From positions 62,001-126,000 of the forward strand of contig NZ_RJVO01000001.1 in NCBI RefSeq assembly GCF_003730135.1: a stretch of 64,000 bases of DNA. Reading direction: 5' to 3'. The translations under genes were made by a program, and so were the position numbers. Under the pieces are notes generated by a model, which was not told where the DNA came from, searched no databases, and was given only the letters and a program-made list of their open reading frames with translations. Of the stretch, positions 34,322 to 52,104 are shown one piece after another. Origin of the DNA: Stagnimonas aquatica (lineage in GTDB: Bacteria > Pseudomonadota > Gammaproteobacteria > Nevskiales > Nevskiaceae). The number at the start of each line of letters is the position of its first letter. The first letter of the stretch is position 1.

Positions 34322-34389
34322 GGCGGCGGATGATGCGGGCAGACCCGGCTTTTTTCTACCGTGCCCCCCCGCCGCCAGCGGCGACTGGA

Positions 34390-36636
34390 CTACTCCGAGG
34401 GATAGCTCGAGGCCTGCGTCATCTTGCCGGCGAAGTAGAACGGGCTCTGCCGCTGCGACAGCCGCGCGATCAGCGCCTGCTGCAAGGCCGCCAGCGTGGC
34501 CGGCTGGGGCGGCGTGCCGGCGCTATCCAGCACCAGGGCGAAATGGAGACTGTCGGCGGTCTCGTCGGCATCCGGGCTGTCCCAGACCAGCAGCCGCCGG
34601 CCGGCACCGGCGACCCGCTCGGGATCGGCGGTCAGCAGCAGCTCGTTGGCCGCGCCACTGGGACTGGCACCGGGCCGGAGCCCGCCGACCGAGAGCTGGC
34701 GTTCGGTGAGCACCACCAGATGTTCCGGCGCCAGGTGGCGCGGCAGGTAGAGCTCGGTGGGGGCTTCGGACCGGCGCCCGCGCCATATCGCCAGCAGCCA
34801 TTTGTTCTGGGAGAAGTAGGCACTGCCGCCCGGCGTCGGCCGCAGCTCCACCCAGTCGGTGCGCTCGCCGGACTGATCCGGCGAGCCGTCGTTGTAGTGG
34901 AAGCTCATCATCTCGCCCTGCACCCGGCGCGGATAGGCGCGCTCCACCACCAGGGGATCGAGGTGGTACTGCACCAGGCTGTCGATGTCGGCCGCGCCGG
35001 CATCCGGGGCCGGCGCCTCGGCGAAGCGGTGGCGGCTGCCGATCACCGAGAAGTCCTCGCCGTTCCAGGCGTCGGCCTCGCTCAGGATGTCGTCGGGATT
35101 GGTGCCATTGCGCGGCTCGGCATGCTGGCCGGAATAGATGTCCCACTGCCATTGCGTCGCCGAGATCGGCGCCGTGTAGAGATCCGCGTAGCGGCTCTTC
35201 TCCGCCTGACTGGCGTCGGACAGCTCCAGCGCCTGGTACACCGACTTGATGCTGCGCACGGTGTCGAGCTGGGTCACACCGCCGCCGACGGCGCGGTACA
35301 GCGGCGCGCCGAACTCGCCGAGCACCACCGGCGTGTCGAGAAAGCGGGTCTCGGCACGGATGCGGTCGAGGTTGGGCAGGTAGGCGCCGTTGTCGATGGC
35401 GGTGAGGTTCACCCCAAAGCGGCCGGCATCGTAGAAATGCGGCGTGAACACATAGGCCGCGCCGGGGCGCTCACCCTCCAGATAGCCACCGCCGGTGGCC
35501 GGGGTGATGCCGGCATTGGTGTCCCAGGTCACCTGCGGCTCGGCGTACACCGGCTTGTCGCCCCAGCCCTGGGCTTCGAGCACCGCCTTCACCCGGCGAT
35601 AGAAGGGCCAGAGGTAGTCGTTGTCGAAGCGCGCCGCCTGGCCGCTGTGGCCGTCGCCGAAATAAGGCTCGTTGAAGGGTTGCAGGCCGAGCACGTAGTC
35701 GAATTCCTCGGCGCTCAAGTGGCTGCGCAGATAGCCGGCGGTGGCGGCCAACTGGCGCAGGAACTCGTCCTGCACCCGCACGGTGCCGATCTCGGTGGGC
35801 ACCTCGGCGTTGCGCCAGAAGTCGTAGTAGGCCAGGCGGATGCTCTGGCTGCTGAGCAGGTACTGGCTCCAACTGAAGCAGAACGGCAGCGGGAAGGGCA
35901 GCGGCAGCAGGCCGGCGATGTCCGGCACCAGGGTCAGCAGCAGCTCGTGCACCGGCAGGCCGAGCAAGGCCTCCAGCTCGAACAGCGGCAGGCCGAAGCC
36001 ATCCAGCAGCAGCACCAGGTCCGGCACCGGGATCATCACGTCGAAGCAGTTCGCCTGGCCGTAGATCGACGGCGGCGTCACCCAGGCTGGCGCGCCGTTG
36101 CCGGCGTAGGTGGAATCCGGCGCATAGAGATGGCGGGTATAGATGTCCCAGTGGTAATCGAGGAAGACGTACAGGCGGTTGCGTGCCGCTTCGCGAATCT
36201 GCGCGGTGAGCTTTTCCAGATAGGCGTAGTCGATGCCCTCCGCCCCCGGCCGTGGCTGCACGCCCTCCCAGGACAGGGTGTAGCGCACCAGGTTGCTGCC
36301 GGTGTTGCGCGCCAGGAGATCGAGCCCGAAACGGGCGTCGTCCTGATCGAGAAAGGGCAGAAAACCCTTGCTGGCGTGCTTGACGCTGCCGGAGACGTTG
36401 TAGCCCCGGAAATAGGCCTCGCGGCCCAGTCCATCGACGAACACCCGGTCGGCGACCGCGCCGGCCGGTGTGTCCACCAGCTTGACCCGCTGCCCGATCT
36501 GGCGGGCCTCGGGCAGGCGATCAAAGGCCAGCCGGTCGCCCGCGCCCGCGATGGAAGCCGGCGGCTCGCCGCGCTGGCCGCAGGCCGTCAACCAGACAGC
36601 GATCACCGCCACCGCCAAAACCTTGCCGCCGCCCAT
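34390..36636 (-). CDS. Endoglycoceramidase-like GH5 lipoprotein
   Basis: A 748-residue protein with a lipobox (VWLTAC, Cys19). The GH5 TIM barrel covers about residues 65-470 in an endoglycoceramidase-like pattern: FRGYNVSG, YVFLDYHWDIYTRH, QPFNEPYFG (acid/base Glu323), TPHFYD (His400) and VVLGEFGA (nucleophile Glu441). Endoglycoceramidases release glycan from glycosphingolipids; other GH5 enzymes cut beta-glucans, so the substrate is open. Residues about 203-253 are a Leu/Pro-rich insert. Residues 560-748 form a C-terminal beta-rich region. It is the last gene of the DUF1329/MMPL unit, 86 bases after the YCF48-like gene. Confidence 0.85.
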   Translation of the reverse strand: MGGGKVLAVAVIAVWLTACGQRGEPPASIAGAGDRLAFDRLPEARQIGQRVKLVDTPAGAVADRVFVDGLGREAYFRGYNVSGSVKHASKGFLPFLDQDDARFGLDLLARNTGSNLVRYTLSWEGVQPRPGAEGIDYAYLEKLTAQIREAARNRLYVFLDYHWDIYTRHLYAPDSTYAGNGAPAWVTPPSIYGQANCFDVMIPVPDLVLLLDGFGLPLFELEALLGLPVHELLLTLVPDIAGLLPLPFPLPFCFSWSQYLLSSQSIRLAYYDFWRNAEVPTEIGTVRVQDEFLRQLAATAGYLRSHLSAEEFDYVLGLQPFNEPYFGDGHSGQAARFDNDYLWPFYRRVKAVLEAQGWGDKPVYAEPQVTWDTNAGITPATGGGYLEGERPGAAYVFTPHFYDAGRFGVNLTAIDNGAYLPNLDRIRAETRFLDTPVVLGEFGAPLYRAVGGGVTQLDTVRSIKSVYQALELSDASQAEKSRYADLYTAPISATQWQWDIYSGQHAEPRNGTNPDDILSEADAWNGEDFSVIGSRHRFAEAPAPDAGAADIDSLVQYHLDPLVVERAYPRRVQGEMMSFHYNDGSPDQSGERTDWVELRPTPGGSAYFSQNKWLLAIWRGRRSEAPTELYLPRHLAPEHLVVLTERQLSVGGLRPGASPSGAANELLLTADPERVAGAGRRLLVWDSPDADETADSLHFALVLDSAGTPPQPATLAALQQALIARLSQRQSPFYFAGKMTQASSYPSE

Positions 36637-36722
36637 GTGCCTGCTCCCTTGGCCGTACCCGATCCGCCCGGAGCGATCCTGTGCCCCGGTACTGCGATTC
36701 CTTCGCTACGGCGGCGCGAAGC

Positions 36723-37667
36723 TCAGCGCGCCACGCCGCTGCCTCCGAGCAGCAGGGGGCCGCCGCTGGTTTCGACGATGGCGGCGAGGCCAGCGCGGTC
36801 GGCCCGCGCGACCGGGGCGAAGCCAGTCGTGCCGGGCGCCCGGGCCAGCAGGGTGCCGCCCAGTCCGGCCAGCAGCAGGCGGCCGTCGCCGAGCCGCGCC
36901 ACGGCGGTCAGCGACTGCTGGGTGCCGCTGTCGAGCGCGCTCCAGCTCAGGCCATCGTCCAGGCTCTGGTAGACGTGGCCGCGCAGACCGGCCACCAGCC
37001 AGGCCTGCGCTTCCAGCGCGGTGCCGGCCCAGAACGAACCGGTGTTGGCGGTCTGGATTTCCTGCCAGACACGGCCGCCGTCGGTGGAGCGGAACAGCAC
37101 GCCGGACTCGGCGCCGACGAACAGCGGCCGGCCGCGACCGCCGAACAGCGTGAACAGATGCCGGTCCGGGCGCTCGCCGGTGGCGATCACCAGCGGCTGC
37201 CAGCTGGCGCCGCCGTCCTCGGTGCGGATGGCCGTGCCGAACAGGCCGACCGCGAGGCCATGACGGGCATCCTCGAAGTGGATGGCGAACAAGGGCTTGT
37301 CGCCCTGGGTGTCGGTGCGTTGCAGACGCCAGGTTTCGCCGCCGTCGCTGGTGGCGAGCACGCTGCCATCGTGGCCGGCGGCCCAGCCCTGTTTGGCATC
37401 GACGAAGCTGAGCGCGGTGAGCAGCACCTGGGTCGGCACCGACCTGGCCTGGCGGAAGCTCTGACCCTCGTCGTCGGAAAGCAGGATCACGCCGTGATCG
37501 CCGACCGCGACGATGCGCTCACCGGCGCGGGTCGCCGCCAGCAGCGGCGCCTGCTCGGGGCGGGCGACAGCCACCGCAGCGGGCGGCTGCGCGGGCGGCG
37601 GAATGGCGGCGGCGGCCAGCGGCAACAGCAGCGCGGCGGCCAGGGCACAGGGATGGAAGGAGTTCAT
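36723..37667 (-). CDS. YCF48/BNR-repeat secreted beta-propeller protein
   Basis: A 314-residue protein with a signal peptide (hydrophobic residues about 8-22). The rest is a beta-propeller of YCF48/BNR type with recurring S-x-D-x-G-x-x-W-like turns: LLSDDEGQSF, ATSDGGETW, RTEDGGASW, RSTDGGRVW, QSLDDGLSW. YCF48 aids photosystem II assembly in cyanobacteria; in non-photosynthetic bacteria the fold is often encoded beside MMPL-like RND transporters, as here (10 bases after it). It probably acts in the periplasm as an accessory factor; the exact role is unknown. Confidence 0.9.
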   Translation of the reverse strand: MNSFHPCALAAALLLPLAAAAIPPPAQPPAAVAVARPEQAPLLAATRAGERIVAVGDHGVILLSDDEGQSFRQARSVPTQVLLTALSFVDAKQGWAAGHDGSVLATSDGGETWRLQRTDTQGDKPLFAIHFEDARHGLAVGLFGTAIRTEDGGASWQPLVIATGERPDRHLFTLFGGRGRPLFVGAESGVLFRSTDGGRVWQEIQTANTGSFWAGTALEAQAWLVAGLRGHVYQSLDDGLSWSALDSGTQQSLTAVARLGDGRLLLAGLGGTLLARAPGTTGFAPVARADRAGLAAIVETSGGPLLLGGSGVAR

Positions 37668-37677
37668 CGCGGTGCCC

Positions 37678-40038
37678 TCAGTGATGCATCAGGCCGGGCA
37701 CCCGCACCGGCTTGGTTCTTGGGAACAGGCGCTCCAGCACCACCGCGAAGGCCGGCAGGGCGGTGATCGCCATCAGCATGTTGACCATGAACATGAAGGT
37801 GAGCAGCTTGCCCATGTCGGCCTGGAACTTGAGCGCCGAGAACGACCAGGTGGCCACACCCACCGACAGGGTCAGCGCGGTGAACACCGTCGCCACGCCG
37901 GTCTCCTGCAAGGCCTGCTCGAAGGCGGCGACGATGTCGAGCCCTTGCGCCAGATGCCATTGCAGGCGGTTGTAGATGTAGAAGGCGTAGTCCACCCCCA
38001 CGCCCACCGCCAGCACCATCACCGGCAGGGTGGCGATGGTCAGGCCGATGTCGTTGTACTTCATGAAGGCGTAGCCGATGAAGGTCGCCACCGTCAGCGG
38101 CAGGCAGCAGGCGATCATCGCCCGCCAGTCGCGGTAGGCGAGGAACACCAGCAGCAGGATGGCGGCGTAGACGTAGAGCATCATCGGCAGCTCGCTCTCC
38201 TCCAGCACCTCGTTGGTGGCGGCCTCGATGCCGGCGTTGCCGCTGGCCAGGCGGATCTTCACGCCCGGCAGCGGATGCGCCTCGCGGTACTGCTTCACCG
38301 CCGCGACCAGGCCCTTGATGGTGGTGGCCTTGTGATCGGCGAGATAGAGGTTGAGCGCCAGCACGCTGCAATCGGCGTTGCGGATGCCACGGCTCTGCTG
38401 CAACTGGTGCAGGGTGTAGCCCAGCGACTGGCCGTCGCGCGGGATCGCCGCCATCTTCGGCTGGCCCTCGTTGAAACCGGCGTTGTAGAGCTTGGTCAGC
38501 GTCGCCGCCGACTCCACCGAGACCACGCCGGGCACGCGGCTCATCTCCCAGCCGAACTGGTCGAAGGCGCGGAACAGCTCGACGTCTTCGCAGGAATCGG
38601 CCGGCGCCTCGACCACCACCGTGAGCCAGTCCAGGCCAATGTCGAAGCTCTGCGCCACCGACACCGAATCGAGGTTGTAGCGGGCATCGGGCCGCAGCTC
38701 TGAGGCGCCCGGTTGCAGGCTGCCGACATGGCGGCCCTGGCTCAGCAGCACGGCGACGACGAACAGCAGCAGCGTCGCCACCGTCATCAGCGCGGCATTG
38801 CGCGGCTTGGCCACCCGCGCCACTTCCTTCATCCACAGCGAGCGCCGTTCGCGCTGCGCCAGCGCCCGCTCCGCGTAGCCCGGCGGCAGGCGGAAGTAGG
38901 AGGCCGCCACCGGCAGCAGGATGAGATTGGTGATGATCTTGTAGCCGACGCCGATGGAGGCGGTGAGCGCCAGCTCGCGGATCATCGGGATCGGCACCAG
39001 CATCATGGTCCCGAAGCTGATCAGCGCAGTGGCGAGCGCCAGCGAGCCGGGAATCAACAGGCCGCTGAAGCTGGCCTTGGCGGCGGCGAGGCTGTCGTCG
39101 CCGGCGGCCAACTGGCGGACGATGAAGTTGATCTGCTGCACGCCGTGCGAGACGCCGATGGCGAACACCAGGAAGGGCACCAGCACCGCCAGCGGGTCGA
39201 GCCCGTAGCCGAGGATGCGCAGGCTGCCGAACTGCCAGATCAGCGACAGCAGCGAGCACACCACCGGCAGCAGGGTGAGCTTCCAGGACCGGCAGTACCA
39301 GTACACCGCCAGCGCGGTCAGCACCAGGGCGATGGCGCAGAACAGCAGCACGCCGCTGGCGCCGTCGGCGATGTCGCCGACCACCTTCGAGAAGCCGATG
39401 ATCTGCACCTCGACCTGGTCGTTCTCGAACGGCGCGCGGATCTTCTCATCCAGCGCGTGCGCGAAGGCGATGTAGTCCAGCGGCTCGCCGCTGCGCGGAT
39501 CGACCTCGTTCAGCTCGGCGACGATCACCGCGCCGGCCTCGTCCTTCGACACCAGCAGGCCGGAATAGCCGGACACCACCACCCGGTGCTTGATCTGCTC
39601 GATGACCTCGGGGGTGAGCGAATCCGGAGTGATCGTGCCGCTGATCAGCTGCTCGGAGAGGAAGCCGTCCTCGGTGATCTCGTTGTAGAACACGTTCGGC
39701 GTCCACAGCGACATCACGCTGCCACGGTTGACGCCGTCGAGATAGGTGACGGCGTCGCTCACCTGCAACAGGGTCTTGAGATTCGCCTCGGTCCAGATCG
39801 AGCCCTGCCGCGCCCGCACCACGATCACCACGCGGTTGGCGTCGAACAGCTCGTTGCGGTACTGCTCGAAAGTCTCCACGTACTCGTGGCGCTCGGGCAG
39901 CATCTTCTCGAAGCCGGCGGAGATCTTCAGACCGCTGGCGGCGTAGGCCATCGCCAGCGTCAGCAGCGCAGAGGCGAACAACACCAGGGCGCGATGGCCG
40001 AACAGCGCGCGCTCCAGCAAGGACACGAAACGGTTCAT
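37678..40038 (-). CDS. MMPL-type RND transporter
   Basis: A 786-residue RND-superfamily protein with about twelve membrane segments arranged 1+5+1+5, and two periplasmic loops of about 170-200 residues. The TM blocks carry VFAIGVSHGVQQ (TM4 region) and AVGVGVDYAFYIYNRL, the charged relay region of the MMPL/SSD group. Relatives move hydrophobic molecules such as lipids, hopanoids or sterol-like compounds. It lies between DUF1302 and YCF48 genes in a tight run. It is unrelated to the drug-type RND pump at 14.5 kb. Confidence 0.93.
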   Translation of the reverse strand: MNRFVSLLERALFGHRALVLFASALLTLAMAYAASGLKISAGFEKMLPERHEYVETFEQYRNELFDANRVVIVVRARQGSIWTEANLKTLLQVSDAVTYLDGVNRGSVMSLWTPNVFYNEITEDGFLSEQLISGTITPDSLTPEVIEQIKHRVVVSGYSGLLVSKDEAGAVIVAELNEVDPRSGEPLDYIAFAHALDEKIRAPFENDQVEVQIIGFSKVVGDIADGASGVLLFCAIALVLTALAVYWYCRSWKLTLLPVVCSLLSLIWQFGSLRILGYGLDPLAVLVPFLVFAIGVSHGVQQINFIVRQLAAGDDSLAAAKASFSGLLIPGSLALATALISFGTMMLVPIPMIRELALTASIGVGYKIITNLILLPVAASYFRLPPGYAERALAQRERRSLWMKEVARVAKPRNAALMTVATLLLFVVAVLLSQGRHVGSLQPGASELRPDARYNLDSVSVAQSFDIGLDWLTVVVEAPADSCEDVELFRAFDQFGWEMSRVPGVVSVESAATLTKLYNAGFNEGQPKMAAIPRDGQSLGYTLHQLQQSRGIRNADCSVLALNLYLADHKATTIKGLVAAVKQYREAHPLPGVKIRLASGNAGIEAATNEVLEESELPMMLYVYAAILLLVFLAYRDWRAMIACCLPLTVATFIGYAFMKYNDIGLTIATLPVMVLAVGVGVDYAFYIYNRLQWHLAQGLDIVAAFEQALQETGVATVFTALTLSVGVATWSFSALKFQADMGKLLTFMFMVNMLMAITALPAFAVVLERLFPRTKPVRVPGLMHH

Positions 40039-40075
40039 GCGCGTGGCTCGGCGCGGGGCGACAGGGAGGCGTGCA

Positions 40076-41998
40076 TCAGAACGAATAGGTCACGGCGAAG
40101 GAGAGGAAGTCGCGGTCACGCACCAGATTGACGTTGCCGCCACCGCTGTACTTGGTATAGCCGAGCGAGGCGGCGAACTGGTTGCCACGGCGCACGAAGT
40201 TGAGCGAGGTGGTGGCGGCCACCGTGTTCGCGACCCAGGGCAGGGCATTGGGTGAGCTGCCCTGCACGCCCTGCGCGAGGTCGAGCTGCGGCATCACCGT
40301 CCAACCCAGACCGAACACGTTCGGATAGGCGACATTGCTGGACAGCGTGTAGCCCCAGGAGAATGGGTCGGGCAGCGAGTAGGAGGGCATCGACCAGGGA
40401 ATGCCGCCGTGCACGTCCAGGCCCGGGTAATAGGTGCCGGAGACTTCCAGCAGGATCATGCCCTCGGAAGCGCCAGTAGCCCTCAGGATGTACTGGCCGA
40501 TGCCATCGGCCGGCGACATCACCTGCAGGCCGTTGACCGCGAACTGGTACTTCTCCTCGTCGACCCAGCCCTTGCAGTACTTGCCTTCGGCCTCGCCACC
40601 GCCGTTGACGCAGGCATAGGGCGCGCTGCTGGCGATGTTGCCGCTGGGCACCGAGGTGTCGATCATCACCGCCTGCTTGGGCTGGTAGGCCAGTTCGCTG
40701 CCGATGCCCCAGGATCCGACCGTGGTCGATACCGAGCCACCGATCATGCGGCGGCCATCGGGGTACTCCAGCTTGAAGCCGGCAGAGACCGGATTGCTGG
40801 TGGCCGCCGCGTCGGTGACCTTGAAACTGACGAAGGGAATCTTCTCGTTGAACTCGATGTAATAGAGGCCGAAGGAACCCGAGAACCACTCCGGCCGGTA
40901 GCGGAAGGAGAGGCCCCACTGACCGCTGTCCTTGCCCTCGGAGGTGCCGAGGTAGGGCAGCGCGGAGCCGGCATTGCCATAGCCCAGCCGGACCAGGAAC
41001 TCGGGTCGGTTGAGACCGTCGGCCAGACGCGGGATGACGTAGTCGGGGTTCAGCAACTGCTCGCGGCTGAGGCCGGTGGCGCCGGGGTCGCCGAGCGTGC
41101 CGGAAGGCGCCTGACCGAGCAGGATGGTGCCGCCCGGGATGGCGGCGATGCCGGCATTGACCTGCGAGGTGGGGATGTAGAGCGCGCGGTCAGCGCCCTC
41201 GCCCGCCACGTCGGCGGTGGAGAAGTAGGTGCCGGCGGCGTCGAGCTGGAACTCGTTCCACTTCCACTGCCAGTAGCTCTCCATGCTCAGCGTGTCGGTG
41301 AGGTCCAGCGACAGCGAGACCATCGGCGCCGGCCGGTACAGCTCCTTGAGCTGGGTGCCCGGCGTGTGCATGCGGCGCAGGTCGATGGCATTGATGGTGT
41401 TGATGCCACCGATGGTGAAGATGCTCTCGCCCCAGGTCAGCACCTGGCTGCCGACGCGGATGCGGCCGTTGCGCTCGAACAGGTCGAAATCCTGGCCGAT
41501 CCAGGCGTCCAGCAGGCGGTGGTCGCGCACCGCCAGCTTCTTGCCCTCCTCGGTGATTTCGGTGCGGCGGGTGTCGTCGATCTTGAAGTCGTAGAGCTCG
41601 GAATAGCGCACCAGCAGGCTGGTGCCCCAGTCCGGCTGCTTGAGATAAAGCTCGTGCAGCCCCTTGAACACCGCCGACACCACGTCGCCCTTCTTGTAGT
41701 TCTGATCGCCGTCGTCGGCATTGATCAGATAGACATCCGCCGAGGCCTCGGACAGCTCGGCACCGAGCGCGGCGCAGCCGCCGGCATCGAGCGCGATCAA
41801 CTGGCAGTCCTGGTCCTGCATGCGTACCTGCATGCCGTAGGACAGCACGCTGTCGAAGGAGCCGTTGATGCCGGCCGCCTTGAAGCGGAAGGCCTGTGCC
41901 GGCGAGGCGGCGCAGAGCGCCGCAGCGAAAGCGATCAGCAGGCGCATGCCCACCACCGGCGCGCCTTCCTTGGCGCGCGACTGTTGCCCAGCATCCAT
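40076..41998 (-). CDS. DUF1302 family outer-membrane protein
   Basis: A 640-residue protein with a signal peptide after a somewhat long N-terminal region (hydrophobic residues about 18-33, cut near AQAF). The mature part is beta-strand-rich with alternating aromatic residues and ends in FAVTYSF, an aromatic C-terminus typical of outer-membrane barrels. DUF1302 proteins are barrel-like and of unknown function. GAGGAAA lies six bases before the ATG at 41998; an ATG 17 residues later is a possible alternative. It lies between DUF1329 and MMPL genes, a recurring arrangement. Confidence 0.93.
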   Translation of the reverse strand: MDAGQQSRAKEGAPVVGMRLLIAFAAALCAASPAQAFRFKAAGINGSFDSVLSYGMQVRMQDQDCQLIALDAGGCAALGAELSEASADVYLINADDGDQNYKKGDVVSAVFKGLHELYLKQPDWGTSLLVRYSELYDFKIDDTRRTEITEEGKKLAVRDHRLLDAWIGQDFDLFERNGRIRVGSQVLTWGESIFTIGGINTINAIDLRRMHTPGTQLKELYRPAPMVSLSLDLTDTLSMESYWQWKWNEFQLDAAGTYFSTADVAGEGADRALYIPTSQVNAGIAAIPGGTILLGQAPSGTLGDPGATGLSREQLLNPDYVIPRLADGLNRPEFLVRLGYGNAGSALPYLGTSEGKDSGQWGLSFRYRPEWFSGSFGLYYIEFNEKIPFVSFKVTDAAATSNPVSAGFKLEYPDGRRMIGGSVSTTVGSWGIGSELAYQPKQAVMIDTSVPSGNIASSAPYACVNGGGEAEGKYCKGWVDEEKYQFAVNGLQVMSPADGIGQYILRATGASEGMILLEVSGTYYPGLDVHGGIPWSMPSYSLPDPFSWGYTLSSNVAYPNVFGLGWTVMPQLDLAQGVQGSSPNALPWVANTVAATTSLNFVRRGNQFAASLGYTKYSGGGNVNLVRDRDFLSFAVTYSF

Positions 41999-42022
41999 GG
42001 CGATTTCCTCGATGGTCGGGAG

Positions 42023-43390
42023 TTAGCGCGAGCCCGCGCGCTGCAAATAGGACTCGGTGAACATGTCCTTCTTGATCCGGCCCTGAGCGGCGGCCAGCCA
42101 ATCGGTTTCCGGCTCGCCGAACACCATCACGTCGCCGAAGTAGCGGCCGCTGTTGAGGTCGTAGCTGAAGAACTCCTGGTTGACGCAGGCGCCCAGCTCC
42201 CAGGCCGGCAGGATCGAGCCCTCCTGGACGCGGGCGATCTTGCCCTGCGAGTCGTAGAGATCGGCAAGCAGGATGGTCCAGCTATCCTCGTCGAGATAGA
42301 AGGTGCGCTTGGCGGCGGCGTGACGCTGGCCAGCCTTGACCGTCGCCTCGACCACCCACACGCGGTGCTTCTCGTAGCGGTAGGCGTCGCGGTTGGGGTA
42401 CTGCGCGCCGAACAGGGTCTTGGCGGTGAAGCGCTTGGCGTTGCGCAGCTCGAAGGTGTTGTAGGGAACGTAGATTTCCTTCTTGCCGACCAGCTTGTAG
42501 TCGTAGCGGTCGAGCATGCCGTTGTACATCCAGGCCTGATCGACGTAGTAGGTGTTCTCCAGGCCCATCAGCGGCGCGTCGTAGGCGTAGGTGGAAAGCC
42601 GCTTCACCCGGCGCTGGCCGGGCATGTAGATCCAGCCCTCGTTGGTCTTGTTGAGGTAGTAGATGCCGAGCGTGATCTCACCGACACGGGCGGCGGGCTC
42701 GGTGACTTCCTGGATGAACTTGAACTCGACACCCTCGGCCTCGGCCAGCGTCTTCGCCTTGGGGTTTCCGAACGGCGTGAGCATGCTCGACTCGATGCGC
42801 ACCTTCACGAAGTCGCTGCCACCGCGACCGGGCGAGAGCAGGGTGTAGTTGGGCTCGGTGCGGCCTTCGCCCAGCCAGCGCAGCTTGTAGTTCCAGATCG
42901 CCTCGATACCGCTGTTCGGCTGCGGGAAGGGAAAGCCGGCCGGCGCCGCCGCCGCCAGTTCGTAGCCATTGGCTGCGATCTTTGCAGTCTTCAGGTTTTC
43001 CTCGCTGCGCTGGTAGACGAAGTCCGGGTAGCCGCAGCTGCGATGCGTGGGATAGATGTCGAGGCGGTAGCCCGGCAGGGTATTGAGCAGTTCCAACTGG
43101 CCCGGCGTCAGATTGGCCTGGTACTGGGCGGCATTGGCCTTGGTGATCGACACCAGCGGCTTTTCACTGGCGTAGGGATTGGGGCGGGGCTGCCCGGCCT
43201 TCCAGCCGGCCGGCGCCTTCAGCTCGCCGCCGGCGAACGCCGGGATGCTGCCGTCGGCGTTGGCCGACTTCTCCGCGCCAACCGGAGTCAGCGACTTGCC
43301 GGCGCTCTGCGCCTGCACCGGCGCCGAGGACAGAACCGTCATCGCCGCCACCGACAGCGCCGCAGCGCCGAACAGTTTCAACTTCTTCAT
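42023..43390 (-). CDS. DUF1329 family periplasmic/outer-membrane protein
   Basis: A 455-residue protein starting MKKLKLFG with a signal peptide (cut near VQAQ, about residue 27). The family hallmark GKSLTPVGAEKSAN follows directly, then CGYPDFVYQRSEEN and many Tyr/Arg-rich strands (GWIYMPGQRRVKRLSTYAYD). DUF1329 is, to my recollection, grouped in the LolA/LolB superfamily of lipid-binding half-barrels, which suits a carrier for hydrophobic molecules. The start at 43390 has GAGAGGTGG upstream; a longer frame to 43465 lacks a signal peptide. DUF1302 follows after 24 bases. Confidence 0.93.
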   Translation of the reverse strand: MKKLKLFGAAALSVAAMTVLSSAPVQAQSAGKSLTPVGAEKSANADGSIPAFAGGELKAPAGWKAGQPRPNPYASEKPLVSITKANAAQYQANLTPGQLELLNTLPGYRLDIYPTHRSCGYPDFVYQRSEENLKTAKIAANGYELAAAAPAGFPFPQPNSGIEAIWNYKLRWLGEGRTEPNYTLLSPGRGGSDFVKVRIESSMLTPFGNPKAKTLAEAEGVEFKFIQEVTEPAARVGEITLGIYYLNKTNEGWIYMPGQRRVKRLSTYAYDAPLMGLENTYYVDQAWMYNGMLDRYDYKLVGKKEIYVPYNTFELRNAKRFTAKTLFGAQYPNRDAYRYEKHRVWVVEATVKAGQRHAAAKRTFYLDEDSWTILLADLYDSQGKIARVQEGSILPAWELGACVNQEFFSYDLNSGRYFGDVMVFGEPETDWLAAAQGRIKKDMFTESYLQRAGSR

Positions 43391-43461
43391 CGACTGCCAC
43401 CTCTCCATGTGAATGCCAAAAACGAAACAGGGATGCCGCATGAACCTGCCGTCTGCGCGCC

Positions 43462-44310
43462 TCAAGTGCGCCGCGCCGGGCGTTGCAATTTCCGCGCCGC
43501 GATGTAGCGCTCGCGGCCACGCTCGCCACTGCGGTTGAACCCAGGCACGAGACGCGGAAGAAGATTTGGGAACAGCAGGGCGAGCTTGGCGCTCCAGCCT
43601 TCGCTGGCCGGCACGCAGCGTTCAACCGCCTCGCCCTGCAATAGCGCGCGCACTGTGGCGGCGACGCGCTCCGGCGCGATCGGCTCGCCCAGGAAGTTCA
43701 GCGGCGAACCGCCGTTGACCGCTTCGTAGCGCAGCATCGGCGTGTCCACCGACGAGGGATTCACCAGCGCGAAATGCACACCGGTCTTCGGCTTGCGCAG
43801 CGCCAGACTCAGCATCAGTCCGCGCAATGCGAACTTGGAGGCGCTGTACACCGCGCTCTCGGCCAGCGGCATGATCGCCGCCATCGAGGCGATGGTGATG
43901 ACGCGCCCCTGGCCAGAGGCGCTGAGCAGCGGCAGCAACAGGCGGGTGAGCAGCGTCGGCACCATCAGATTGATGTTCAGCTCACGCTCGATCTGCGCCA
44001 GCTCCGCCTGTTCGAACGGCGTGGTGGACACGATGCCGACGTTGTTGACCAGGAGATCGCAAGAACCACATTCCTTGAGCACCCGCTCGGGCAGACTCTG
44101 CAACAGTGCGCGATCACAGAGATCACCGGCGATGCACAGCGCCGGTCGCGACAGCTTCGCCGCCAGCGCGGCCAGCGCCTCGGCATCGAGATCGACCAGC
44201 ACCAGGCGCAGACCGGCAGCATCGAGTTCCAGGCAGATGCGGCTGCCGATGGCGCCGGCGGCGCCGGTCACCAGCGCGACGCGATCCCGCCAGACCAGAG
44301 GCGCGCTCAC
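43462..44310 (-). CDS. SDR family oxidoreductase
   Basis: A 282-residue short-chain dehydrogenase/reductase. Cofactor motif TGAAGAIG near residue 16, VDLD at the end of beta-2 (favouring NAD(H)), LLVNNVG, and the active site Ser (IASMAAIM region) with YSASK. It would interconvert a hydroxyl and a ketone. The C-terminal 40 residues are hydrophobic then basic, suggesting loose membrane contact. The gene overlaps the flavin monooxygenase gene by four bases, so the two enzymes probably act on the same compound in sequence. 71 bases separate it from the DUF1329 gene. Confidence 0.92.
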   Translation of the reverse strand: MSAPLVWRDRVALVTGAAGAIGSRICLELDAAGLRLVLVDLDAEALAALAAKLSRPALCIAGDLCDRALLQSLPERVLKECGSCDLLVNNVGIVSTTPFEQAELAQIERELNINLMVPTLLTRLLLPLLSASGQGRVITIASMAAIMPLAESAVYSASKFALRGLMLSLALRKPKTGVHFALVNPSSVDTPMLRYEAVNGGSPLNFLGEPIAPERVAATVRALLQGEAVERCVPASEGWSAKLALLFPNLLPRLVPGFNRSGERGRERYIAARKLQRPARRT

Positions 44311-45674
44311 GCCGCCTTCCCCTGACGATCCACCTGGATGCCATCGAAGTAGCCCGGCACCAGCTCCGGCCAGCCCATGCTGCGGCGCAGCTTCTCGATG
44401 TACTTCTTGTAGGCGGCGATCTCGATGTAGACCGCATGGCGCGCCGAGCCGACGAAGTGGATGCCGCCGGAGAGATCCGGTTGGTCACCGTGGATCAGTG
44501 CGTCGAAAGCGAGCGCCGAGGAGGGCCGCTCCTGCTGGTCACGCAGGTAGTTGGCGATCAACTGCGAGATGCGGTCGAACAGGGTGTAGGCGCTGGAGTT
44601 GGTCTCCAGATAACCCAGCCCGAACAGGTTGTGGTGACGACGGTTGAAGGCGTTGAGATAGAGCTGCGGACGACCGCCTTCCCAGGCGAAGTAGGACTCG
44701 TCCATGTAGGGAATCTTCATCTCGTAGCCGGTGGCGTAGAGCACCAGGTCGATGCGCTCGCGCTGACCACCCTTGAACACCACCTCCTCACCCTCGAAGT
44801 GATCGACATCCGGCCGCACCGCGATGTCGCCGTGCTGGAGGTAGTGCAGCAACTGCGAATTGAGGATGGGGTGCGACTCGAACAGCTTGTGGTCGGGCTT
44901 GGGCAGACCGAAGCGGGTGAGATCGCCATTGACCATGCGCAGCAGCCAGCCGAACACCCGCTGCTCCAGCCACATCGGCATCTGCGGGCCGCGTGCACCG
45001 AATTCGTCCACCGGAATCCCAAACAGGTGCTTGGGCAGGAAGTGATAGCCACGACGCAGGCTGATGAAAGCCGCGTCAGCATTCGCGGCGGCATCGCAGG
45101 CGATGTCGCAGCCGGAGTTGCCAGCACCGATGATCAGCACCCGCTTGCCACGGAATTCCTCCGGATCGCGATAGCTCACCGAATGCCGGATCTCGCCCTT
45201 GAACTCGCCCGGATGGCGCGGCAGCGAGGGATGCCAGTTGGTGCCGGTGGCGCAGACCACGGCGCGGTAGTCGCGGGTCTCGCCACCCGCCAGCCGCACT
45301 TTCCATACCTCACCGTCACGGCGGATGTCTTCCACCGCGGTGTTGAAGCGGATCGCCGCATACAGATCGAAACTGCGGGCGAATTGCCGCGCGTAGTCAA
45401 GAATCTGTTTATTCCCCGGATAGTCCGGATACGACGCCGGCATCGGGTAGTCATAGAAGCCGGATTGCGAGCGCGAGGAAATGAAATGCGCCGAGCGGTA
45501 CATCGGGGTGCCGGGGTTGTCGAGATCCCAGATGCCACCGACATCGCGGTGGCGCTCGAACTGCTCGTAGGGAATGCCCAGGCGCTTGAGCGCGCGCGCT
45601 ATGCTCAGCCCACCGGGGCCGGCACCGACGATGCAGACCGGCAGGGTGACGGCGTTGCGGCTGACTTCAGTCAT
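44307..45674 (-). CDS. Flavin-containing monooxygenase (FMO/BVMO group)
   Basis: A 455-residue FAD/NADPH enzyme. FAD motif VGAGPGG (16-22), NADPH motif IIGAGNSG (181-188) and, between them, the FMO fingerprint FKGEIRHSVSY (158-168). It is of Baeyer-Villiger/FMO class B type and could insert oxygen into a ketone, hydroxylate nitrogen or sulfur, or, like AlmA, act on long-chain alkanes; the sequence alone does not decide. The start at 45674 is chosen because the longer frame to 45767 lacks the family N-terminus. It begins the seven-gene unit and is divergent from an AraC regulator, 130 bases away. Confidence 0.9.
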   Translation of the reverse strand: MTEVSRNAVTLPVCIVGAGPGGLSIARALKRLGIPYEQFERHRDVGGIWDLDNPGTPMYRSAHFISSRSQSGFYDYPMPASYPDYPGNKQILDYARQFARSFDLYAAIRFNTAVEDIRRDGEVWKVRLAGGETRDYRAVVCATGTNWHPSLPRHPGEFKGEIRHSVSYRDPEEFRGKRVLIIGAGNSGCDIACDAAANADAAFISLRRGYHFLPKHLFGIPVDEFGARGPQMPMWLEQRVFGWLLRMVNGDLTRFGLPKPDHKLFESHPILNSQLLHYLQHGDIAVRPDVDHFEGEEVVFKGGQRERIDLVLYATGYEMKIPYMDESYFAWEGGRPQLYLNAFNRRHHNLFGLGYLETNSSAYTLFDRISQLIANYLRDQQERPSSALAFDALIHGDQPDLSGGIHFVGSARHAVYIEIAAYKKYIEKLRRSMGWPELVPGYFDGIQVDRQGKAA

Positions 45675-45804
45675 GGACAGCGACTCCGTTAAGCGTTTGT
45701 CAAGACCAAATGGAATGGCGAAGTTGTTGCTAGTAGATCGACAAGGTCCACATGGAAGAAGGGCCAATCAGGAATCGCGCGGGGGGGAAAACGGACAACC
45801 GCAC

Positions 45805-46842
45805 ATGACCCTACTCACCTGCCCCAAGACCCACGACACCCGCTACACCGCCCCGGTGGTGCCACCGGCGGTGCTCGCCGCTGTCTGCACCTACGCGGAA
45901 TCGCGCAGCCTCTCGCCGGAGCGCTGGTTTGCCGGCTCCGGACTGGATGCCAGCCAGCTCAGCGATCCTGACTTGCGCGTCTCCTACCGGCAGGCCTCGG
46001 TGGTACTGCGCCGCGCCCTGCAGGCACTGCAGGTGCCGGAAGCCGGCCTGGAAATCGGCCGACAGGAAACCCCGGCCTTCTTCGGCGTACTCGCCTTCGC
46101 GATGATGGCCAGCGCCAACCTCGGCGACGCGCTGCGCCTGGCCGCGCAGTACCACCAGGTCTCCGGCAGCCTGATGGACATCGCCCTCGATACCGACAGC
46201 CGGCAGCAGACGGTGATCGTCTCCGCCACGCCGCGCTTCCCCGACCCCGACCTCTTGCCGTTTCTCTGCGAGGAGCTGTTCACCAGCAGCCTGACCCTGG
46301 TGCAGCACCTCTTGGGCGAGCGCTTCACGCCGCTGCGCATGGAGTTCAGCTACCCGGCACCCGCCTATGCCGAGGCCTACCGCGCGGCATTCGGCTGCGA
46401 GGTGCGCTTCGATTGCGCACACAACCGTCTGATCGGCGAACAGCACTGGCTGGCGCGGCCACTGAAGACCCACAACCCCTTCGGCGTGCGTCTGGGCGAG
46501 GAGCTGTGCCGCAAGGCCTCGCGGGTACTGCCGGAGGACGACCTGACGCATGTCGTCGGCCGCCTGCTCAGCGCCCAGCTGCAGGCGCCACCGGGGATGA
46601 GCGAGATCGCCGGGCGCCTCAATATCACCGAGCGCACCCTGCGGCGCCGGCTGGCGCAGAGCGGCATCAGCTTCCGCCAGTTGCTCGACCAGGTGCGCGA
46701 GCAGCGCGCGCGCGAACTGCTGAGCCAGCCGCACCGGCAGCGCATCATCGACATCGCTGCCGAACTGGGTTTCAGCGACGGCCGCGAGTTTCGCCGCGCC
46801 TTCAAGCGCTGGACCGGGCACACCCCGCAGGCGATGGGCTGA
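45805..46842 (+). CDS. AraC-family regulator with arabinose-binding-type N-domain
   Basis: A 345-residue regulator. Residues about 25-210 form the long helical sensor domain seen in OruR/ArgR-like AraC proteins (VSYRQASVVLRRA, GVLAFAMMASANLGDALRL). The C-terminal 90 residues hold two helix-turn-helix units: MSEIAGRLNITERTLRRRL and IDIAAELGFSDGREFRRAFK, ending WTGHTPQAMG. It is divergent from the FMO-SDR-DUF1329 unit, which is its likeliest target. I could not define a convincing direct-repeat site in the 130-base gap. Confidence 0.93.
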   Translation: MTLLTCPKTHDTRYTAPVVPPAVLAAVCTYAESRSLSPERWFAGSGLDASQLSDPDLRVSYRQASVVLRRALQALQVPEAGLEIGRQETPAFFGVLAFAMMASANLGDALRLAAQYHQVSGSLMDIALDTDSRQQTVIVSATPRFPDPDLLPFLCEELFTSSLTLVQHLLGERFTPLRMEFSYPAPAYAEAYRAAFGCEVRFDCAHNRLIGEQHWLARPLKTHNPFGVRLGEELCRKASRVLPEDDLTHVVGRLLSAQLQAPPGMSEIAGRLNITERTLRRRLAQSGISFRQLLDQVREQRARELLSQPHRQRIIDIAAELGFSDGREFRRAFKRWTGHTPQAMG

Positions 46843-46975
46843 GCAGGGCCGATCAACCGGCCCGCCAGGACAAGCCAAGGCGGGGCTGCGTTCGCGCGGG
46901 CAGCGGCTAGAATCAGCGCGCCCGCCGGGGCCTGATGGCGCGCGGCGGCGTCCTCCCCTCGCCCGCCCCTTCCTC

Positions 46976-50094: not shown

Positions 50095-52104
50095 TCAGTT
50101 TTCCACCTCGGTCAGCGACTGGCTGATGACCTGCGGCTGATTCACGGTCACCGCCTCCATGGTCACCGTCGCAGTGCCCAGCTGCACACCCAACAGTTGC
50201 AGCAGCGGATTGATCAGCGCCGTCGCCAGCGAGTTCACCAGCGTCAGCAGCGGCGCCAGGATCACGGTGTTGACACTGTTGACGATGCTGCTGACCAGGC
50301 CGACCAGACCGCCAACCAGGCCGCTGCCGGTCTGCTGGCTGGTGACACCCAGGTGCACGCCGACGTTCACCGGCGAGCCGATGGTCTGCGGATTCATATT
50401 GCTGACCGGGTTATTGGCCTGGTAGTAGGGCGGGCCGGAGTCGGTGCCGGGATCACGTTCGGTATAGCTGCTGATCGGGCTGAGCGTGCGCTGCCCCTGG
50501 CTGCCGACGCTCACCGAGGTCAGCTCCAGGCCCAGCGCCAGATTGGTGCTGCCCAACAAGCCGGCATTGACCGCCACCGTCGCCAGCGGCAGGTTGCCGG
50601 TCGGGCTCAGGGTCTGCGGGTTAGCGGCGGTGGCGGTGCCGCTGAAGGTGCCGACCTGCACATCGGCCACCGCAGTGCTGGCGCTGAGCGAGGCGATGGG
50701 ATGACCGTTGTTGCTGGAGGCGCGAGGGCATTGCAACGCCTCGAGCTGGGCTTCGGCGGAGGCCACGTCGACATCGACGCCCAGATTCAGGCTGCTGGGC
50801 AAGATCGCGACGCTGCTATGTACACCGAGAATGGCCAATATCCCGAGCAGAGAGTTGATCAAGGCCTCCAGCGCCGCCTTCAGGCCATTGAGCAACTGCC
50901 CGGCGCTGATGCGGATCTGCAGACGCACCTGCGCGGTCCGCGCCACCGCGCCTTCCGAGCCCACCGCACCCAGCCCTGGCTGCTGAGGCTCGACCACTTT
51001 CAGGAACACCTTGACATCGGCAACACCGGGCACCGATAGGCCCAGCCCGGGAATCGCCACGGAGGAAGGCCCGCCAGCGGCCGCCGCCGTGGCCGCCTGC
51101 CCCAAGGCATTCAGCAGGGTCATGCCGTCGATGAAGGGCAGCGCGGCAAGCAAATCGCTGACCGGCTGGTTGAGCGCCAGCCCGGTCATGTTCAGCAGCT
51201 CGCCCAAGCCGAAGACGGCGCCGTTGCTCTCAGCGACCCCGGCCAGTCCCTGCACCAGCCCCGAAACGCCGCTGCTGACCTGGTTCCCGGTGCCGGTGAG
51301 CGCGAATTCCAGCCCGTTGCCCACCACGCCCAGCCATTGCGGCAGGGTCAACTGGAGATTGAGTAGATCGGAAACATCCTGCACGCCCAGGCCCAGCTCG
51401 GTGGCGCCGGCCAGCAGATTGCCCAAGGAGACATGGGCATTGGCCAGACCGGCGTAGTCGGCGGCGGTGAGGTTGATGCCTGCGGTACAGGCCGCGCCGC
51501 CATTCGGGCAGAGCAGCGCGCGCAGCAGCGGGTTGAGCAGGGCCGACTGCTGGGTATTGAGGCTGAGCAGGCCGCTGCCGACATTGAACGCGCCCACCGC
51601 CTGCTGGCTGCCCACCGCCACGGCGGTCAGGCTGGCGTCCCGGTTGCCGGTCACCAGCGGGAAGATCCGGGTTGGCTGCTGGCGGCTGATGCGCACCCGC
51701 ACCGCGTCGAGGCGGTCGTCGCCGTCACCGAGTTCCTGGAACCCGCGCAGACCGCCGGGATTGCTCAGCTGGCGGCCGATCTGGACGCTGACCGTGTAGT
51801 CCTTGGTGCTGCTGGAATTGCGCGCGAGGCTGGCCATCACCTCGGCCAGGGCCTGCGCCTTGGAGCCCGGCACGCCGGAGCTGGACGCGCAGCCGCTGAC
51901 CACCCGCGAGGCGTCGAGGGCGGCGACATCGGCCAGCCGCTGGGTATCACGTTGCGCGTAGTAGAGCCGGCCGACATCCACCGCCAGCGCCAGTGCCGAC
52001 AGCAGCGCGACCAGGGTGAGCGCCGCGAAGACCGCGACCGCGCCAGCCTGGCGGTGGCGCGGTGCACGTGGATGCAAAGTCTTTGAAGTCACGGCGGCTT
52101 CCAT
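50095..52104 (-). CDS. TadG-like (Flp pilus-type) membrane-anchored protein
   Basis: A 669-residue protein. Residues about 15-65 are a TadE/TadG-type N-terminus: QAGAVAVFAALTLVALLSAL, then VDVGRLYYAQRDTQRLADVAALDASR. The rest is a very long extracytoplasmic part, Leu/Gly/Ser/Asn-rich, with Cys pairs and several hydrophobic stretches (for example residues about 600-650). TadG proteins are minor components of Flp/Tad pili or related secretion. No other tad gene is nearby. A GTG at codon 6, with GGAAG five bases upstream, is an alternative start. Function of the orphan is unknown. Confidence 0.82.
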   Translation of the reverse strand: MEAAVTSKTLHPRAPRHRQAGAVAVFAALTLVALLSALALAVDVGRLYYAQRDTQRLADVAALDASRVVSGCASSSGVPGSKAQALAEVMASLARNSSSTKDYTVSVQIGRQLSNPGGLRGFQELGDGDDRLDAVRVRISRQQPTRIFPLVTGNRDASLTAVAVGSQQAVGAFNVGSGLLSLNTQQSALLNPLLRALLCPNGGAACTAGINLTAADYAGLANAHVSLGNLLAGATELGLGVQDVSDLLNLQLTLPQWLGVVGNGLEFALTGTGNQVSSGVSGLVQGLAGVAESNGAVFGLGELLNMTGLALNQPVSDLLAALPFIDGMTLLNALGQAATAAAAGGPSSVAIPGLGLSVPGVADVKVFLKVVEPQQPGLGAVGSEGAVARTAQVRLQIRISAGQLLNGLKAALEALINSLLGILAILGVHSSVAILPSSLNLGVDVDVASAEAQLEALQCPRASSNNGHPIASLSASTAVADVQVGTFSGTATAANPQTLSPTGNLPLATVAVNAGLLGSTNLALGLELTSVSVGSQGQRTLSPISSYTERDPGTDSGPPYYQANNPVSNMNPQTIGSPVNVGVHLGVTSQQTGSGLVGGLVGLVSSIVNSVNTVILAPLLTLVNSLATALINPLLQLLGVQLGTATVTMEAVTVNQPQVISQSLTEVEN

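Follow-up and report, generated by a model that had tools for sequence, protein, structure and literature searches.

A gene block of Stagnimonas aquatica with a possible role in (glyco)sphingolipid handling across the cell envelope

Introduction

What do seven co-oriented genes, whose predicted products are distributed from the cytoplasm to the outer membrane, have in common, and which compound would they handle? The question is raised by a locus of Stagnimonas aquatica, a relative of Solimonas, in a stretch of 64,000 nucleotides (contig NZ_RJVO01000001.1, positions 62,001 to 126,000), here called the window, whose own numbering is used throughout. The locus encodes a flavin monooxygenase (FMO), a short-chain dehydrogenase/reductase (SDR), a DUF1329 and a DUF1302 protein, an MMPL transporter, a YCF48 propeller and a glycoside hydrolase of family 5 (GH5), all on the minus strand, with an AraC-family regulator divergent from them. 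A preliminary description of the sequence had suggested that such a system takes apart or exports a glycolipid, sterol-like or ketone compound. We propose more narrowly, with a probability of about one half, that the block is a locus for the handling and acquisition of (glyco)sphingolipids. DUF1329 and DUF1302 proteins are abundant, and a cargo is known for few of them; as for the passage of sphingolipids across the Gram-negative envelope, what has been proposed for Pseudomonas is limited to a channel in the outer membrane and oxidation in the periplasm. A link between these transport genes and sphingolipids offers a specific, testable cargo together with a set of loci. The parts are already known; what is new is how they are combined and which cargo is assigned to them.

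The block as a unit and its conserved core

All eight open reading frames are present at the coordinates and on the strands first described, each family named for them is confirmed by Pfam, and with the starts chosen then the gaps between the seven minus-strand genes are −4, 71, 24, 37, 10 and 86 bases. A sister species (G052) carries the block with 91% DNA identity over its length, lacking GH5 only. In two genomes of the same genus (G055 and G054) the interval from homoserine kinase to dapF measures only ~120 and ~90 bases and holds no gene, so that the whole block, 34322 to 46975 in the window, is missing from this site. The high identity in one species and the total absence at the same site in two others mean that the block is more than a chance proximity, and the empty site identifies the limits drawn for it at the outset as those of a gained or lost unit.

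The core DUF1329-DUF1302-MMPL-YCF48 recurs in constant order in 13 of the 58 genomes of the family, when the best DUF1302 match is required to be at least 52% identical and the best MMPL match at least 66%. In Solimonas an enzyme dependent on pyridoxal phosphate (PLP) is inserted before YCF48, and in one genome (G027) the contig ends ahead of YCF48, so that its core was counted without it. The neighbourhood thus recurs as had been expected for the transport genes; an intact GH5 gene beside them is found nowhere else.

The four core genes, all on the minus strand, encode the following parts. The DUF1329 protein (42023 to 43390; PF07044 8e-119) also matches the LolA_like model PF17131 (5e-12) and is a candidate periplasmic lipid carrier of the AmeB type. 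The DUF1302 protein (40076 to 41947; PF06980 1.5e-141), of the AmeA type, is predicted to be an outer-membrane beta-barrel; its signal peptide favours the start at 41947 over that at 41998, which changes the gap to 75 bases, the ATG at 41998 being still possible. The nearest structures to its barrel model are OccK/OprD-type channels (best Z 18.8), at an identity so low that they give no indication of cargo. The transporter (37678 to 40038; PF03176 4e-25), of the AmeD type, has about 12 hydrophobic or transmembrane segments and the relay motif GVGVDY. Among family models it fits HAE3 best (TIGR00921, 1.6e-43, 149 bits against a cut-off of 352), and HpnN at 7e-16. The YCF48/BNR beta-propeller (36723 to 37667; PF14870, PSII_BNR, 2e-22), of the AmeC type, begins with a signal-peptide-like sequence. 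The view that the parts span the envelope is therefore supported. The window genome (G000, 3.8 Mb) holds 14 DUF1329 matches, 12 of them full length, most presumably with other cargo.

The GH5 protein resembles endoglycoceramidases

The last gene of the block (34390 to 36636, minus strand; Pfam GH5 2e-7) encodes a lipoprotein with the lipobox LTAC at residues 16-19. Its closest sequence match in the PDB is endoglycoceramidase II (3e-12), followed by the sterylglucosidase of the fungus Cryptococcus (7lpo, 1.5e-5). The predicted model (predicted local distance difference test, pLDDT, 63; predicted template modelling score, pTM, 0.74) has the TIM barrel and C-terminal beta domain of the endoglycoceramidase fold, and its nine best structural matches are endoglycoceramidases I and II and endogalactoceramidase (Z 28.7-30.6), including 5j14, 5ccu, 2osx and 6jyz over ~410 residues. 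Sterylglucosidases come next (Z 27.7 and 23.5) and then other GH5 enzymes and mannanases (23.4). The glutamates expected as catalytic acid/base and nucleophile, E323 (in NEP) and E441 (in GEFG), are invariant in 23 aligned relatives together with H162, D164, N322, H400 and others. Residues K86, H162, D164, E323 and E441 align with what we take to be, in PDB numbering and in role, K66, H135, D137, E233 and E351 of endoglycoceramidase II. The protein scores 38.5 bits with the curated endoglycoceramidase I equivalog model NF051847, far below its cut-off of 700. Sequence and structural matches and catalytic residues agree with the type first given to the enzyme: it is structurally nearest to the endoglycoceramidases with their active site kept, and may likewise cleave between ceramide and glycan. 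A hydrophobic insertion of ~54 residues (~199-252), missing in a distant homologue (L039), could dock on a lipid surface.

The intact gene is found in the window genome only. No orthologue at E 1e-15 was detected beyond it among 369 genomes of the class, and one homologue, 33% identical, occurs in an epsilonproteobacterial metagenome-assembled genome that does not have the core.

Genes next to the core in related genomes

In two Solimonas genomes, one of which (G038) was taken as Solimonas flava DSM 18980, the gene after YCF48 encodes a neutral ceramidase; the S. flava protein matches PF04734 (2e-131) and the C-terminal domain of the family (2e-26). A short lipoprotein-like reading frame stands next to it in S. 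flava (L041, 16177-16629), whose GTG start overlaps the ceramidase stop (GTGA) and which fuses residues ~40-69 of the window GH5 directly to residues ~660-746, the catalytic domain having been lost in frame. Judging from this remnant, GH5 and ceramidase formerly shared one operon end, an arrangement consistent with two successive steps in the breakdown of glycosphingolipids.

In Pseudomonas aeruginosa the sphingosine-induced SphR regulon comprises sphA, sphBCD (cytochrome, flavin oxidase and threonine-aldolase-like protein) and the ceramidase gene cerN (PMC3900636), and sphBC is required for sphingosine metabolism (PMC11893366). Genes of a similar kind, encoding a cytochrome c, a flavin adenine dinucleotide (FAD) oxidase with a twin-arginine translocation (TAT) signal and a PLP aldolase-type protein, adjoin the core in six genomes (L076, L077, L078, L079, L084 and L085), and in L076 and L077 they come directly after YCF48, in the slot of GH5 and of the ceramidase. 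The SphC-like oxidase matches TIGR01679 (2e-136), and the aldolase-type protein is weakly akin to 3-hydroxy-D-aspartate aldolase. At a further locus (L081) oxidase and aldolase stand beside the core, with a ceramidase ~5.6 kb off. Whole or partial SphBCD-like sets also accompany ceramidases at nine other loci (L120-L122, L126, L130-L132, L145 and L149). An SphC-like oxidase is present in 13/13 core genomes of the family against 24/45 without the core (Fisher p 0.002), and among the 18 genomes of genus g6 in 7/7 with the core and 0/11 without it (p 3e-5), both counts being uncorrected for shared ancestry. Since in relatives the same transporter lies beside these kinds of sphingolipid-degrading enzymes, a sphingolipid-type cargo is suggested, a sterol or ketone being less well supported than a sphingolipid or sphingoid base; of the original guess, the glycolipid is kept in this refined form. 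Elsewhere in the window genome (L180, 7872-14280) a TetR regulator, a lipoprotein-like cytochrome c and a TAT FAD oxidase, hence an SphBC-like pair, stand beside a DUF1302 gene of 840 amino acids, and because of this pair the organism may metabolise sphingoid bases at that site.

Other enzymes accompany related genes. Penicillin-amidase-like acylases of unusual length (1,080-1,200 amino acids) lie 3′ of the core in five genomes (L079, 15048-18638; L080, L084, L085 and L086); they are of the N-terminal nucleophile (Ntn) type and related to penicillin G acylase, which is suggestive only. A distant genome (G049; L134, 4090-14612) has the row DUF1302-DUF1329-ceramidase-SDR-GDSL lipase-SDR-phospholipase C-like, and in a Solimonas-group genome (L133, 2473-11198) GH92, an endonuclease/phosphatase-like protein (possibly a sphingomyelinase) and a ceramidase adjoin a DUF1302 gene. 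A PLP enzyme resembling D-cysteine desulfhydrase and 1-aminocyclopropane-1-carboxylate deaminase, 55% identical between the two sites, is located near ceramidase-linked DUF1302/DUF1329 loci (L041, 11179-12288; L134, 17836-18909).

The oxidoreductases, the regulator and transcription

The FMO gene (44307 to 45674; PF00743 6e-52; PDB 8z16 5e-66) overlaps the SDR gene (43462 to 44310; PF00106 8e-44; motif YSASK) by 4 bases, both on the minus strand. The literature searched did not show which enzyme the PDB entries nearest to the cytoplasmic FMO (8z12-8z17) represent. Its motif FKGEIRHSVSY conforms to the FMO fingerprint FxGxxxHxxxY and not to the Baeyer-Villiger fingerprint FxGxxxHxxxW(P/D), which weakens the idea of a ketone substrate; speculatively, the fingerprint would fit amine oxygenation. 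The divergent regulator (45805 to 46842, plus strand; Pfam Arabinose_bd 1e-44 and HTH_18) is 88% identical in the sister species and 44-45% identical in separate FMO modules of Solimonas relatives. A 20-base element, GGTTGTCCGTTTTNCCCCCC (45781 to 45800, minus strand), adjoins the AraC start in the AraC-FMO gap, is common to the window, the sister species and two relatives with a separate module (G042 and G044), and is the sole such site in the window genome when up to 3 mismatches are allowed; it is a candidate operator. A half-site like that of SphR was considered in the same gap and rejected, since one 8/9 match against 0.58 expected by chance is no evidence.

The search for sigma-70-like promoters found 0 against 1.3 expected, and of terminator-like sites none is intergenic, both matches falling within genes. 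These signals weigh neither way on whether the seven genes share one transcript, which is plausible. Further along the window (50095-52104, minus strand) a reading frame of 669 amino acids resembles, as judged by eye, a Tad/Flp-type pilus assembly protein.

Alternative explanations

Several observations weigh against a sphingolipid role. The block itself contains neither a ceramidase nor the cytochrome c, flavin oxidase and PLP aldolase of an SphBCD-like set. Its operon can exist without GH5, since in the sister species dapF directly follows YCF48, and in G042 and G044 FMO, SDR and divergent AraC stand as a module of their own; in two further genomes (G038 and G047) FMO and AraC, without a recognised SDR, lie apart from the core. 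A fixed seven-gene system is therefore not supported. The co-occurrence counts are uncorrected for shared ancestry, and the SphBCD-like genes were assigned from predicted functions and gene order, not by alignment to the Pseudomonas proteins. Over all ceramidase loci of the family, ~4-6 of 38 have any DUF1329 or DUF1302 gene nearby, not clearly above the background given by ~12 DUF1329 copies per genome, and for this reason the sphingolipid claim is confined to the orthologous core and the SphBCD-like genes. Moreover, a system with the same parts, AmeABCD, has been assigned to monoterpene export: deletion mutants tolerate monoterpenes less well and accumulate more Nile Red (PMC6394551). General export of hydrophobic compounds is accordingly the alternative that has to be weighed most closely. 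The core would expel a toxic lipophile (terpenoid, alkane or long-chain ketone) oxidised by FMO and SDR, GH5 being incidental, and the AmeABCD parts (DUF1302, DUF1329, YCF48/COG4447 and RND), of similar sizes in the window and kept together in the 13 genomes, are consistent with this, as are the independence of the FMO-SDR-AraC module and the dispensable GH5. However, the window order DUF1329-DUF1302-MMPL-YCF48 is unlike the Ame order DUF1302-DUF1329-YCF48-RND, none of the neighbouring genes examined was recognised as a terpene gene, and sister loci carry ceramidase, acylase and SphBCD-like genes, so that we consider this explanation unlikely.

The sterylglucosidases, second structural group and weak sequence match of the GH5 protein, would allow a steryl-glycoside locus with FMO and SDR acting on the sterol. 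Endoglycoceramidases nevertheless rank ahead of them in both structure and sequence, the core neighbours in relatives are ceramide- and sphingosine-type enzymes, and the FMO is not of the Baeyer-Villiger type; we give this possibility little credit. The similarity of the transporter to HAE3 and HpnN models would suit traffic of the cell's own lipids, as by HpnN with hopanoids, the hydrolases serving remodelling. Housekeeping of this kind is very improbable for a block that is patchy in the family, is missing from its site in the same genus and has no lipid-biosynthesis genes. Finally, the AraC-FMO-SDR module, the core and GH5, each found separately elsewhere, might have come together fortuitously at the site flanked by homoserine kinase and dapF, with no common substrate. 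Against such a patchwork, which we regard as highly doubtful, the modules share one orientation with little space between them, two species keep everything except GH5 together, and in Solimonas too GH5 can be traced to the end of the operon.

A proposed model for sphingolipid handling

For a locus that handles and acquires (glyco)sphingolipids, we infer a substrate and an order of steps as follows. The GH5 lipoprotein, at the surface or outer membrane, would cut the sugar off a ceramide-type glycolipid. The DUF1302 barrel and the LolA-like DUF1329 carrier would hand the lipid product on between outer membrane and periplasm; the YCF48 propeller would serve as adaptor, and energy would come from the proton-driven MMPL/HAE3 pump of the inner membrane. 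In the cytoplasm FMO and SDR, probably oxidative accessories, would oxidise a long-chain amino-alcohol product, and AraC would sense an intermediate. Uptake for catabolism is tentatively favoured over export for detoxification: AmeABCD is regarded as an exporter, whereas homologues in Pseudomonas putida are needed for growth on Tween 20.

A broader and more tentative proposal is that DUF1302-DUF1329-YCF48-MMPL might be a general trans-envelope conveyor of sphingoid lipids, previously undescribed, in free-living gammaproteobacteria. It would be joined by a lineage-specific ceramidase, acylase, SphBCD-like set or endoglycoceramidase, and in the genus of the window FMO and SDR would offer another route of oxidation.

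Comparison with known systems

The core proteins had been regarded as recurring neighbours of unknown function, a view made outdated by the AmeABCD deletion phenotype and by the requirement of PP_0765 and PP_0766 for Tween 20 use in P. putida (PMC10866462). AmeABCD of Castellaniella defragrans, an HAE3 RND system (PMC6394551), has the same four protein kinds and, compared by kind and size, nearly the same lengths (window and Ame, in amino acids: DUF1302 605 and 623, DUF1329 451 and 455, COG4447/YCF48 316 and 314, RND 787 and 786). It differs in gene order, in its terpene-gene neighbours, where the window has GH5, FMO, SDR and AraC, and in probable substrate. PP_0765/PP_0766 together with PP_2018/PP_2019 likewise combine DUF1302 and DUF1329 with an efflux-type transporter and a protein of the periplasm, all jointly needed on Tween 20 (PMC10866462), but they are encoded in two separate loci, act on a fatty ester and lack a glycosidase.

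The Rhodococcus endoglycoceramidases I and II and endogalactoceramidase share with the window GH5 the fold (Z ~29-31), the catalytic glutamates and the equivalents of K66, H135 and D137, whereas the window protein, at ~23% identity, is a lipoprotein of 748 amino acids with the additional hydrophobic insertion. The SphR/SphA/SphBCD/CerN system of P. aeruginosa (PMC3900636, PMC11893366) is alike in the AraC-type control of lipid genes, and its likeness extends in the sister loci to cytochrome c, TAT oxidase and PLP aldolase, sometimes with a ceramidase. SphA was considered as a DUF1302 protein and ruled out, being a COG4313 channel. In contrast to the Pseudomonas system, the window has GH5, FMO and SDR and no SphBCD, uses a DUF1302 protein in place of the COG4313 channel at the outer membrane, and adds the MMPL pump and the DUF1329 carrier.

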